Shown: positions 54,957-58,405, numbered from the stretch's first letter. The stretch is 64,000 nt of DNA from Desulfuromonadaceae bacterium (GCA_028681335.1 JAQUIT010000004.1:1-64000); one strand, 5' to 3'. Notes: generated from the letters alone by a model not told the origin. Program-made: numbers and translations.

Positions 54957-55066
54957 CTCCGAGCCATGTTGCCTAACAGGATAAACCTCACGGCGTCTGG
55001 CCAACGGGTTTCGCTGGAAACGGCGGAGCCTCCCTTTCGGGAAGGAGCCCTATCGCAGCGCGGTAG
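54957..55066 (+). ncRNA. Moco/Tuco riboswitch-like RNA upstream of aor
   Basis: The leader contains CTCCGAGC, GCCTAA, GGCCAACGGGTTTCGC, GGAAACGGCGGAGCC and TCCCTTTCGGGAAGGAGCC in that order. These match the conserved core of the Moco RNA motif as I remember it, and the same blocks recur at 58254. The start codon of the AOR gene follows after 28 bp with no terminator hairpin between, so control of translation is likely. A tungsten-cofactor (Tuco) variant would fit the gene, but the helix that separates the two types cannot be judged by eye. Confidence 0.75.
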
Positions 55067-55094
55067 AAAATATATATGATCGGGAGAATTTAAC

Positions 55095-56825
55095 ATGGAC
55101 AAAATTTTACGCGTAAACATGACCGACCTGAGCAGCAAGCTTGAATCGGTTCCAACCGCCTGGGCAGGTCTTGGAGGCCGCGGCCTGACATCAACCATCG
55201 TCGCGGCAGAAGTCCCACCTGCCTGCCACGCACTGGGAGCAAGCAACAAGCTGGTGTTTGCCCCGGGACTCCTGACCGGAACCGCTGCAGCCAACTCCGG
55301 GCGTCTTTCCGCCGGTGCCAAGAGCCCGCTGACCGGAACAATCAAGGAAAGCAACGCCGGCGGCACCGCAGCACAGATGCTGGCACGCCTTGGCATCAAG
55401 GCGCTGATCATTGAAGGCATGCCGACGGAGGACAAGTGGTACAGCCTCCATGTCAATAAAGACGGCGTCAGCGTACAGGAAGAAACCGAGCTTGTAGGCA
55501 AGAAAAACTTTGCCGTGATCGAAGCTCTTGAAGCCCGCCTCGGCAAGAAAACCGGCATCCTGACGATCGGACCTGTCGGCGAGCTGAAGATGGCTGCAGC
55601 CAACATCTCCGTCAAGGACCCGGACAGCAAGATTCGCAGCCATGGCCGCGGCGGTCTCGGTGCCGTCATGGGCTCCAAGAAAATCAAGTTTATCTCCATC
55701 GACGATCAGGGCGCTCCCGGCGTTACAATCGCCGATCCGGAAAAATTCAAAGTTGCGGCCAGAACATTTGCCAAGGCTCTCCTCGACCACCCGGTCAGTG
55801 GTGAAGGTCTGCCGACCTACGGCACCAACGTCCTGGTCAACATCCTCAATGAGGCAGGGGGACTGCCGACCCGTAACTTTTCAGTCGGCCAGTACGAAAG
55901 TGCCGACAAAATATCCGGCGAAACCATGCATGACACCATCGTTGCCCGCGGCGGCAAACCGAGACATGGCTGCCACGCCGGCTGCATCATCCAGTGTTCA
56001 CAGGTCTACAACGACAAGGACGGCAAATACATAACCTCCGGTTTTGAGTACGAGACCATCTGGGGGCTTGGCGCCGACTGCTGTATCGATAACCTGGATG
56101 ACATCGCCTATGCCGACAGCATCATGGACGATATCGGCATCGACTCCATCGAAACCGCCGTCATGTTCGGTGTGGCTATGGAAGCCGGTATCCTTCCCTG
56201 GGGCGACAGCAAAGAGATGTTGCGTATGCTCAGCGAAGAAATCGGTGCAGGAACACCACTCGGTCGCATCCTCGGCGGCGGAGCAGGATCTGTCGGCAAG
56301 ACGTATGGCGTGATTCGCGTACCGGTTGTAAAGAATCAGGCAATCCCGGCCTATGATCCCCGTTCCGTGAAAGGAATCGGCATCACTTACGCCACCAGCA
56401 CCATGGGTGCTGACCACACTGCAGGCTATACAATCGCCACCAACATGCTCAATGTCGGCGGTTTTGTAGATCCACTCAAAAAGGACGGGCAGGTTGAACT
56501 CTCCCGCAACCTGCAGATCGCCACCGCTGCAGTTGATTCCACCGGTATGTGCATCTTCGTTGCCTTCCCGGCACTGGACATCCCCGAGTGCCTGCCTGCG
56601 CTGATCGACATGATCAACGCCCGTTTTGGCATCGCCCTTACCGGCGATGATGTCACCAATCTCGGCAAGCATATCCTTAAGGTAGAGCATCAGTTCAACA
56701 TTGAAGCCGGCTTTACCAACAAGGATGACCGCCTGCCGGAGTTTTTCAATACAGAGCCGGTCGCTCCACACAACGCCATCTGGGATTTTACCGATGCCGA
56801 GATCGATGAGTTCTGGAACTTCTAA
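55095..56825 (+). CDS. aor: Tungsten aldehyde:ferredoxin oxidoreductase
   Basis: A 576-residue AOR-family enzyme that oxidises aldehydes to acids with ferredoxin, or reduces acids in reverse. The N-terminal pterin-binding domain has GLGGRGLTS and SAGAKSPLTGTIKESNAGG. The [4Fe-4S] ligands appear as Cys293, Cys297, Cys301 (GCHAGCIIQC) and Cys486 (STGMCIF); the first gap is three residues where the archaeal enzymes have two. It groups in context with the Aromatoleum AorB set because genes for a MoaD-like and a MoeB-like protein follow. No AorA or AorC subunit gene is present. Confidence 0.93.
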   Translation: MDKILRVNMTDLSSKLESVPTAWAGLGGRGLTSTIVAAEVPPACHALGASNKLVFAPGLLTGTAAANSGRLSAGAKSPLTGTIKESNAGGTAAQMLARLGIKALIIEGMPTEDKWYSLHVNKDGVSVQEETELVGKKNFAVIEALEARLGKKTGILTIGPVGELKMAAANISVKDPDSKIRSHGRGGLGAVMGSKKIKFISIDDQGAPGVTIADPEKFKVAARTFAKALLDHPVSGEGLPTYGTNVLVNILNEAGGLPTRNFSVGQYESADKISGETMHDTIVARGGKPRHGCHAGCIIQCSQVYNDKDGKYITSGFEYETIWGLGADCCIDNLDDIAYADSIMDDIGIDSIETAVMFGVAMEAGILPWGDSKEMLRMLSEEIGAGTPLGRILGGGAGSVGKTYGVIRVPVVKNQAIPAYDPRSVKGIGITYATSTMGADHTAGYTIATNMLNVGGFVDPLKKDGQVELSRNLQIATAAVDSTGMCIFVAFPALDIPECLPALIDMINARFGIALTGDDVTNLGKHILKVEHQFNIEAGFTNKDDRLPEFFNTEPVAPHNAIWDFTDAEIDEFWNF

Positions 56826-56835
56826 CGCGGAAACG

Positions 56836-56859
56836 TCCCTCCCCGGAAACGGGGAGGGA
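56836..56859 (+). other. GAAA-capped hairpin between aor and moaD
   Basis: A 10-bp perfect stem (TCCCTCCCCG) closes a GAAA tetraloop. No T-run follows, so it is more likely an RNA processing or stability hairpin than a terminator. It could set the ratio between the abundant enzyme and its cofactor-synthesis partners. Confidence 0.6.
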
Positions 56860-56883
56860 AACTGTTGGACAAATGGAGCAGGC

Positions 56884-57108
56884 ATGCAGATTACATTAAA
56901 ATTATTTGCCTCATTCAGAAATGACAGGTTCAAGGCTGCCCAGAAGGAGATACCTGATGGAACCGACTGCCGTACCATCGTACGTGAGCTGGGATTAACG
57001 GAAGAGGAGATCGGCATTATCCTGGTAAACGGCCGTCATGTGACTCTTGATTATGTACTGAATGACAGTGAAACCCTGTCGCTCTTTCCACTGGTCGGCG
57101 GAGGCTAA
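56884..57108 (+). CDS. moaD: MoaD-type sulfur-carrier protein
   Basis: A 74-residue ubiquitin-fold protein. It starts MQITLKLFASFR and ends FPLVGGG, so the terminal Gly-Gly needed for adenylation and thiocarboxylation is present with one additional Gly. It corresponds to AorD of the Aromatoleum aldehyde oxidoreductase operon. GGAGCAGG lies directly before the ATG. The next gene, its presumed activating enzyme, starts one base after the stop codon. Confidence 0.9.
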   Translation: MQITLKLFASFRNDRFKAAQKEIPDGTDCRTIVRELGLTEEEIGIILVNGRHVTLDYVLNDSETLSLFPLVGGG

Positions 57109-57109
57109 A

Positions 57110-57994
57110 ATGAGACGAACAATGTTGGCATGTATCCAAAAACAGCTTACAGGCGGTCTCCTACCCTGGGCAGTTCAGAGTGCTGCGGCAGAACAGTTTA
57201 ACTGCAGCCTTGCGGCGGTTGAAGAATTTACTCTTGAGAACGGCATACTTCCCGCCAGATATCAGCGCAACCAAAACATGATTTCAACCGCCGAACAGCT
57301 ACTGCTGTTCAGAAGCCGGATAGCCGTAATCGGCTGCGGCGGACTTGGTGGATACGTTATTGAGGAGCTTGCCCGACTGGGAGTTGGCGGGATTGTGGCC
57401 ATCGATCCGGATGTATTCGAAGAGCACAACCTGAACCGGCAACTGCTTGCCACCCCGCGAACTCTGGGGCAGGCCAAGGCAAAAGCGGCTCTGAACAGGG
57501 TCAACGAGATCAATCCGGCCGTAACGGTCACACCGATTATTGATGCCTTCTGCGAAGCTAACGGCCACGACCTCCTTAATGGAGTGACGGTGGTGGTCGA
57601 CGCTCTCGACTGCATCTCATGCCGCTTGGAACTGGCGGAAATCTGCACTGAAATGCAGATTCCGCTGGTTCACGGGGCGATCGGCGGCTGGTATGGACAT
57701 GTTGCCACCCAGCTCCCGGGCGACACCACGGTACAGAGCATCTATCGCAATTGGGTACAGGGGAAAGGAATTGAAAAAGAATTGGGAAACCCTGCATTCA
57801 CCCCGGCAGTGGTAGCAAGCCTGCAGGTGGCAGAAGCTTGTAAAATAGTGCTTGGCAAAGGTGAACTGCTGCGGCGGCGCAAACTAAGCATTGATCTGTT
57901 GGATATGGAGATTCATGAAATTCTTTATGGCAGTACCGCGGACGTTATTTATCTCCCGACCCGCGACATTGAATCTGCAAGAGCCGCCGGATAA
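57110..57994 (+). CDS. MoeB/ThiF/HesA-type adenylyltransferase
   Basis: A 294-residue E1-like enzyme that would adenylate the C-terminus of the neighbouring MoaD. The ATP-binding loop is GCGGLGGYVIEELARLGVG, followed by DPDVFEEHNLNRQLLA and KAKAALNRVNEINPAV, and a VHGAIGGWYGHVA segment. The paired CxxC zinc motifs of classic MoeB are not obvious. It is equivalent in position to AorE. GGAGG lies 5 bp upstream of the ATG. Activation of a tungsten-specific MoaD is the likely job. Confidence 0.87.
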   Translation: MRRTMLACIQKQLTGGLLPWAVQSAAAEQFNCSLAAVEEFTLENGILPARYQRNQNMISTAEQLLLFRSRIAVIGCGGLGGYVIEELARLGVGGIVAIDPDVFEEHNLNRQLLATPRTLGQAKAKAALNRVNEINPAVTVTPIIDAFCEANGHDLLNGVTVVVDALDCISCRLELAEICTEMQIPLVHGAIGGWYGHVATQLPGDTTVQSIYRNWVQGKGIEKELGNPAFTPAVVASLQVAEACKIVLGKGELLRRRKLSIDLLDMEIHEILYGSTADVIYLPTRDIESARAAG

Positions 57995-58079
57995 TTTTGT
58001 TTTCCGGTTACCGATAGAGTTTAAAAGTACCATCATTAACTGATTAATTATTGAAGCTCTTATAAAGGTCTTAGATTTT

Positions 58080-58218
58080 GACTCCCCCTCCCTTGCCTAG
58101 AGGCACCTACTTCTGGTGACGGGAGGGGGTTGGGGGGTGGGTGAAGTTGCAAACTGCTGATTTCATGGCAACCTCCCCCCCACCCTAACCCTCCCCCGCC
58201 AGGGGGGAGGGAACTTTT
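58080..58218. repeat. GC-rich nested inverted repeats
   Basis: CCCCCTCCC and GGGAGGGGG form one hairpin, and GGTTGGGGGGTGGG faces CCCACCCTAACC near its partner further on, with a second local CCTCCC/GGGAGG pair at the end. It looks like an intergenic repeat element. It fills much of the 500-bp space between the MoeB-like and MoaE-like genes; the riboswitch-like leader follows directly. Confidence 0.7.
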
Positions 58219-58253
58219 GTGACTTTTGCAAGAGGCTCTATTTATACGTAACA

Positions 58254-58360
58254 CTCTCCGAGCTGCAGCGCCTAAAAGTTTTTCTCATGGTGCCAGGCCA
58301 ACGGGTTCTGCCGGAAACAGCAGCGCCTCCCTTTGGAAAGGAGAACCTCCGATAACGGAT
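58254..58360 (+). ncRNA. Moco/Tuco riboswitch-like RNA upstream of the moaE-tup operon
   Basis: CTCCGAGC, GCCTAA, GGCCAACGGGTTCTGCC, GGAAACAGCAGCGCC and TCCCTTTGGAAAGGAG appear in the same order as in the leader at 54957. The primary sequence around them differs, which suggests a conserved fold and not a recent duplication. A strong terminator 17 bp further on implies control by premature termination. Confidence 0.75.
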
Positions 58361-58376
58361 ATCATCCGGACTTTAG

Positions 58377-58405
58377 GGGGCTTTCCATATGGAGAGCCCC
58401 TTTTT
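58377..58405 (+). terminator. Expression-platform terminator of the riboswitch-like leader
   Basis: GGGGCTTTCC pairs with GGAGAGCCCC (one G-T pair) around ATAT and is followed by TTTTT. It lies between the riboswitch-like element and the first gene of the operon. Confidence 0.85.

Follow-up and report, generated by a model that had tools for sequence, protein, structure and literature searches.

The stretch of 64,000 nucleotides (nt) analysed here, referred to as the window, belongs to a Geobacter-like Desulfuromonadaceae bacterium (GCA_028681335.1, JAQUIT010000004.1:1-64000) and harbors an island of tungsten-related genes. The island comprises aor, encoding a tungsten-type aldehyde:ferredoxin oxidoreductase (AOR), with genes for a MoaD-like and a MoeB/ThiF-type protein behind it, and the operon moaE-tupABC-moeA-moaC together with a mogA-mobB fusion gene (Table 1). 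Both aor and moaE are preceded by a leader of the Moco/Tuco riboswitch class, and the present study concerns the outputs of these two leaders and the direction in which a common ligand would drive them. An earlier interpretation drawn from the DNA alone, in the following called the sequence-only reading, had placed tungsten genes under both leaders, and the protein matches agree with it: TupA reaches 438 bits to a solved tungstate-binding protein (3lr1), and AOR 269-329 bits to the solved enzymes 9mqx, 1aor and the tungsten-containing 8c0z. Several of the NCBIfam matches lie below their cut-offs, and names such as TupB or MoeA denote the best hit in combination with the gene position.

A scan of the whole window with cmscan and the Rfam model RF01055 (Moco RNA, gathering score 36 bits) yielded 56.2 bits (E 8.5e-11) for the aor leader and 54.5 bits (E 2.7e-10) for the moaE-tup leader, as expected from the sequence-only reading, which had proposed two Moco/Tuco-type riboswitches. 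Both RNAs align over the full length of the model (positions 1-135) with stems P1, P2, P4 and P5 and the GGAAAC motif, both show the four- or five-stem junction with a GAAA tetraloop on P4, and both are located in 5' leaders, of aor and moaE-tup, respectively. They are identical in 83 of 122 aligned columns, and the five conserved blocks reported earlier (CTCCGAG, GCCTAA, GGCCAACGGGTT, GGAAAC and GCCTCCCTTT) were found in the same order in both. The hairpin P3, which had been left for inspection, is missing from the two aptamers, with 14 model positions deleted and only three bases linking GGCC to GGG (GGCC-AAC-GGG). The leaders are P3-less members of the Moco/Tuco riboswitch class.

Table 1. 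Positions of the leader elements and genes of the island, counted from the first letter of the window (SD, Shine-Dalgarno sequence)
Feature	Start	End	Strand	Basis or remark
P3-less Moco/Tuco aptamer 1 (aor leader)	54945	55063	+	RF01055
P1 5' strand CUCC	54957	54960	+	aptamer partner 55044-55047; predicted SD partner in ligand-free fold
P5 5' strand CUCCC, SD-complementary (candidate anti-SD)	55030	55034	+	sequence, folds
P1 3' strand GGAG of aptamer 1	55044	55047	+	
Hairpin CUAUCGC-AGC-GCGGUAG between aptamer and SD	55050	55066	+	kept in relatives with changed sequences
aor SD GGGAG	55082	55086	+	sequence; 9-13 nt before ATG 55095
aor, tungsten-type aldehyde:ferredoxin oxidoreductase	55095	56825	+	PF01314/PF02730; 8c0z, 1aor
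moaD-like, ThiS-family protein	56884	57108	+	PF02597
MoeB/ThiF-type adenylyltransferase	57110	57994	+	PF00899; NCBIfam MoeB models below cut-off
P3-less Moco/Tuco aptamer 2 (moaE-tup leader)	58244	58359	+	RF01055
Antiterminator 5' part, GGAGA 58340-58344 (includes P1 3' strand) and CCUCC 58346-58350	58340	58350	+	fold of pre-terminator transcript
Intrinsic terminator AGGGGGCUUUCC-AUAU-GGAGAGCCCCUU, then U run	58375	58402	+	-20.5 kcal/mol
Antiterminator 3' part, overlaps terminator 5' arm	58376	58386	+	predicted fold
moaE	58495	58875	+	PF02391
tupA, tungstate-binding protein	58922	59734	+	best match NF041772, below its cut-off; 3lr1
tupB, permease	59739	60425	+	NF041773, below its cut-off
tupC, ATPase	60432	61172	+	PF00005; operon position
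moeA	61142	62359	+	best match NF007960, below cut-off
moaC	62390	62863	+	TIGR00581
mogA-mobB fusion	62860	63888	+	NF006932 and TIGR00176

Of 147 related genomes, 106 gave RF01055 matches (at most 13 in a single genome), as did 65 of 394 genomes sampled from the phylum. The loci around these matches were fetched, a model was built from 30 loci, and all leaders were re-aligned to it. The resulting comparison set consists of 156 distinct leaders of the order together with outgroups, members from Bacillota lying outside the sample. Since the aptamers of all 156 leaders are only 115-123 nt long, P3 is absent throughout the order.

The two leaders of the window differ in the elements that follow the aptamer. 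Behind the second one lies the strong terminator hairpin described earlier, and none was found behind the aor aptamer. The first leader had been said to end close to a ribosome-binding site, and this proximity is correct in a modified form: the Shine-Dalgarno (SD) sequence of aor is located 34 nt past the 3' strand of P1, thus outside P1, and a hairpin is placed between them. The E. coli type of switch with the ribosome-binding site inside P1 was rejected for this leader, as no start codon follows the 3' strand of P1. Among the relatives, where terminators were scored within 45 nt of the aptamer, none of 47 leaders of aor or formate dehydrogenase genes but 78 of 103 others carry one (Fisher p ~7e-21, calculated on leaders that are related to each other), and aor starts cluster 20-40 nt past the aptamer model. 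Five aor leaders outside the order (L208, L253, L275, L276 and L277) likewise have no terminator, although most other leaders there do. These data support a translational type for the aor leader and a transcriptional type for the moaE-tup leader. The part of the sequence-only reading that assigned translation and transcription to the same ligand stands in this respect; it had left out the sign of regulation, for which the comparison favors opposite directions.

For the moaE-tup leader, folding of a window transcript ending in the terminator loop gave an antiterminator structure at -43.2 compared with -40.0 when the aptamer was enforced, with positions 58340-58344 paired to 58382-58386 and 58346-58350 to 58376-58380. 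In 82 leaders the 3' strand of P1 matches the terminator 5' arm of its own leader better (mean -9.79 kcal/mol) than shuffled partners (-8.29, standard deviation 0.25), which is visible by eye in pairs such as GAAAAGGGG with CCCCUUUUC or GGAAAGG with CCUUUCC. The covarying pairing and the window folds point to a predicted antiterminator that uses P1 and excludes the terminator. Without ligand, the GGAGA and CCUCC segments would pair with the terminator 5' arm and allow read-through; with the cofactor bound, P1 would be stabilised, the arm freed and moaE-tupABC-moeA-moaC shut off. By its sequence, the leader appears to be laid out like a common ligand-OFF switch. Published quantitative PCR data from Geotalea daltonii show a 1.5- to 3-fold drop of bamB homologues with added tungstate (PMC13119186), which agrees with OFF regulation by terminator types, provided that those transcripts carry the RNA. 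A promoter scan around the window leaders gave no more sites than in shuffled sequences.

A second terminator family (GGCCGACGGGTGTTT...CCGTCGGCC) was observed behind P3-less RNAs in Geobacterales relatives (L115, L116, L121, L013 and L004). This terminator finds no pairing partner in the P1 strand but may have one in the CCCGU of P5. The genes behind it encode a TonB receptor, a FecBCD-type importer, DUF364 and XdhC proteins, which suggests metallophore-type uptake under the same P3-less RNA.

In the aor leader, both the first strand of P5 and the 5' strand of P1 are complementary to the SD. The P5 strand varies among aor leaders (CUCCCUUU, CUUCCUUU, CCUCCUUU) and the SDs change alongside (AAAGGGAG, AAGGAAGG/AAAGGAG, AAAGGAGG); over 27 distinct combinations the true P5 and SD partners fit better than shuffled ones (mean -9.54 versus -8.63, standard deviation 0.26, p 1e-4). 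The 5' strand of P1 was rejected as a covarying partner, its fit being worse than shuffled. SDs of aor genes with the RNA pair more strongly with CUCCCUUUC than those of aor genes without it (-11.2, n=15, versus -7.0, n=62; p 5e-7), while the fit to the 16S anti-SD is alike in both groups (p 0.81). RNAfold predicts an unpaired SD fraction of 0.12 for free aor leaders and 0.71 with the aptamer enforced, compared with 0.18 and 0.51 in a control with grafted ribosome-binding regions of other genes. In these predictions SD closure is partly generic, and the contrast between open and closed forms is larger in the real aor leaders than in the grafts. For the window leader, the closed folds reach -49.3 when the SD pairs with the 5' strand of P1 and -48.2 when it pairs with P5, compared with -42.0 for the aptamer fold, so that closure is favored by 7.3 kcal/mol without ligand. 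Both closed forms exclude the aptamer and therefore both predict activation by the ligand. In the absence of ligand the GGGAG would be held by the CUCCC of P5, the CUCC of P1 or both, and translation would not occur; with the cofactor, both strands would be recruited into the aptamer and the SD freed. We thus infer a translational ON switch for the aor leader, which is predicted and comparatively supported.

A contrary view, which we consider unlikely, is that both leaders are OFF switches and that aor translation decreases upon ligand binding, as it does for E. coli moaA, through SD-P5 pairing in the bound state or through a folded aptamer that blocks the ribosome. In the literature consulted (available text of PMC2408646), tests are described for a single representative, the E. 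coli moaA leader, which has the ribosome-binding site in P1 and is repressed by the ligand; P5:SD pairing would give OFF if it were part of the bound state. This is opposed by the position of the aor SD, 34 nt outside P1, and by the lack of a start codon after the P1 3' strand. The CCUCCC of P5 is also conserved in terminator-type leaders without a nearby SD and thus serves the aptamer itself, and the enforced aptamer leaves the SD mostly open, more than in the grafted controls. Far more improbable is the view that the aor copy has decayed or is constitutive and has no regulatory output. The missing terminator and a P1 of only 4 base pairs in the window copy could be read in this way; against it, the full-length aor aptamer equals the tup copy in covariance score, and leader position, linker hairpin and SD tuning are conserved across many species.

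Some observations weigh against ON regulation of aor combined with OFF regulation of moaE-tup. The P5:SD match in the window comprises only 5 base pairs compared with 8-9 in relatives, and the conserved CUCC or CUCCC would accept a GGAG of whatever origin as partner, so that chance should account for part of the SD closure; the grafted controls indeed close as well. One leader (L117_7340m) is predicted to be closed even with the aptamer enforced. The RNAfold calculations are made without ligand, tertiary contacts and co-transcriptional kinetics, and the p-values from shuffling overstate independence among leaders related by descent. Furthermore, bamB, which encodes a subunit of a tungsten benzoyl-CoA reductase, is located behind tandem terminator-type RNAs. 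Because the gene of this tungsten enzyme follows such RNAs, a general rule that enzyme leaders act on translation was rejected. In L119, L118, L063 and L113, bamB and a DUF7479 gene are located behind two or three P3-less RNAs in tandem, every one of which has a terminator of its own.

Taken together, it is likely that the two P3-less leaders are wired to opposite outputs, ON for aor and OFF for moaE-tup. The difference between the outputs would concern not only the level of regulation but probably also its sign. Under this scheme the cell would produce apo-enzyme solely in the presence of the cofactor and turn down import and synthesis under the same condition. With slightly less confidence, we favor a conserved circuit with split signs in one locus, in which the cofactor would turn on translation of tungsten enzymes (AOR, and a Sec-formate dehydrogenase in relatives) and turn off transcription for tungstate import and pterin synthesis.

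The order of the island, consisting of an Fe-alcohol dehydrogenase gene, a leader, aor-moaD-thiF, a second leader and moaE/tupA, recurs in L142 and L078. It is kept without moaE in L117, where two leaders precede a porin gene and tupA, and L120 retains aor, moaD, moaE and tupABC. In L140 (1-6550) the gene order is also kept, and the gap between the dehydrogenase gene and aor measures only 86 bases, with no room for an aptamer and none present; here the first riboswitch may have been lost naturally. The aor gene of L140 still has the SD AAAGGGAG. The genome of the window contains another, distant gene of the AOR family (G000:C10:132633-133694, L333), which has no Moco RNA upstream.

Regarding the metal, the gene context makes the tungsten form of the cofactor the probable ligand. 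The sequence-only reading had considered the two leaders as candidates for the tungsten variant, and the island as well as the P3-less form fit this; tungsten selectivity of the two leaders is tentative, because within the genus P3-less RNAs are found before an operon for a Mo-type aldehyde oxidoreductase as well, and the P3-less label does not settle the metal. With a sizeable probability, though somewhat short of an even chance, the P3-less RNAs of the phylum would instead recognise Moco, a precursor without metal or the cofactor with either metal. Within the genus, the genomes G003 and G006 have the P3-less RNA followed by a MoeA-like gene and by a gene of the molybdenum-hydroxylase type; the product of the latter in G003 matches the Desulfovibrio aldehyde oxidoreductase (1dgj/1sij), a molybdenum enzyme, over its length with 1174-1182 bits. 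Other families of the phylum also have P3-less RNAs before genes of the MoeA-like, XdhC and 2Fe-2S types, the products of moaE, moeA and moaC serve both cofactors, and exceptions to the equation of P3-less with Tuco were already noted by Regulski et al. 2008 (available text of PMC2408646). On the other hand, order-wide the P3-less RNAs are mostly located before tup, aor and bamB, and in the genome of the window they precede only aor and moaE-tup: no third RF01055 copy was found in the window or elsewhere in the 4.0 Mb genome, which has three ModA genes at other sites. The linkage of the P3-less subtype with tungsten genes is present in this genome, but relatives with the Mop-type operon depart from it.

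Two further elements were observed in leaders of relatives. Several formate dehydrogenase and tup leaders (L058, L108-L112, L122-L126, L282 and L283, e.g. L109:1766-1934) carry an insertion in the loop of P5, a conserved structured element of ~70-85 nt (TTTAGTGAGTTAG...CGTGAACGAACTATCCTG...GAAAAGG) for which no Rfam family was found. Its interpretation as a second aptamer was rejected, since it is a dispersed repeat that occurs in 53 of the 147 related genomes, often in at least 20 copies; the genome of the window contains 15 weak-to-good matches, none of them in the window. Multicopy sequence families have been noted in Geobacter bemidjiensis (PMC2996986), and the repeat may be one of these. 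In addition, the first gene behind terminator-type RNAs repeatedly encodes a small protein (L074:7288-8028, L009, L014, L016, L018, L023 and L025) that carries the motif IDDTDNLESRGTG and whose only match in Pfam is a sub-threshold one to TiaS_TCKD.

If the predicted ON switch is correct, the aor leader would become the first Moco/Tuco riboswitch with an activating output in the literature searched; no activating member was found in this search, most subscription journals being outside it. In the literature consulted, the class is described only as repressing, and the ligand of P3-less Moco RNAs lacks direct demonstration. Moco and its intermediates were too unstable for in-line probing, and an E. 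coli RNA deprived of P3 lost regulation altogether instead of changing its specificity (available text of PMC2408646, Regulski et al. 2008). One aptamer type predicted to activate aor and to repress tup would offer two reporters with opposite expected slopes for one ligand, by which side effects of cofactor mutants could be separated from a true ligand response, and the discrimination of molybdenum and tungsten would be testable in a Geobacter relative. The suggested logic is that no apo-enzyme is made without its cofactor.

Work published in 2008 already describes the class, its P3-less subtype and the coexistence of both output types in a single organism, and tandem copies are likewise known from the literature. 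New here are the output split linked to gene function and the opposite sign predicted from sequence. With RF01055 as set out in the available text of Regulski et al. 2008 (PMC2408646), the window leaders share the consensus, stems P1, P2, P4 and P5, the GAAA tetraloop, the association with moa, transport and enzyme genes and the two output types in one organism. They differ from that description, which covers repression only, in that the types are split by gene function within a conserved island and that an opposite sign is predicted for aor. The P3-less subtype was proposed as Tuco from 19 organisms in the same source, and the window leaders share with this Tuco/WCo subtype the missing P3 and the adjacent aor and tup genes, whereas in relatives the P3-less form also stands before the Mo-type aldehyde oxidoreductase operon. 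Further close counterparts are the leaders of aorA1-3 in the relative Pelobacter carbinolicus (PMC3543383), where Moco-type riboswitches are likewise annotated before aor genes. There, control of transcription is described, whereas the aor leaders analysed here have no terminators and look translational.

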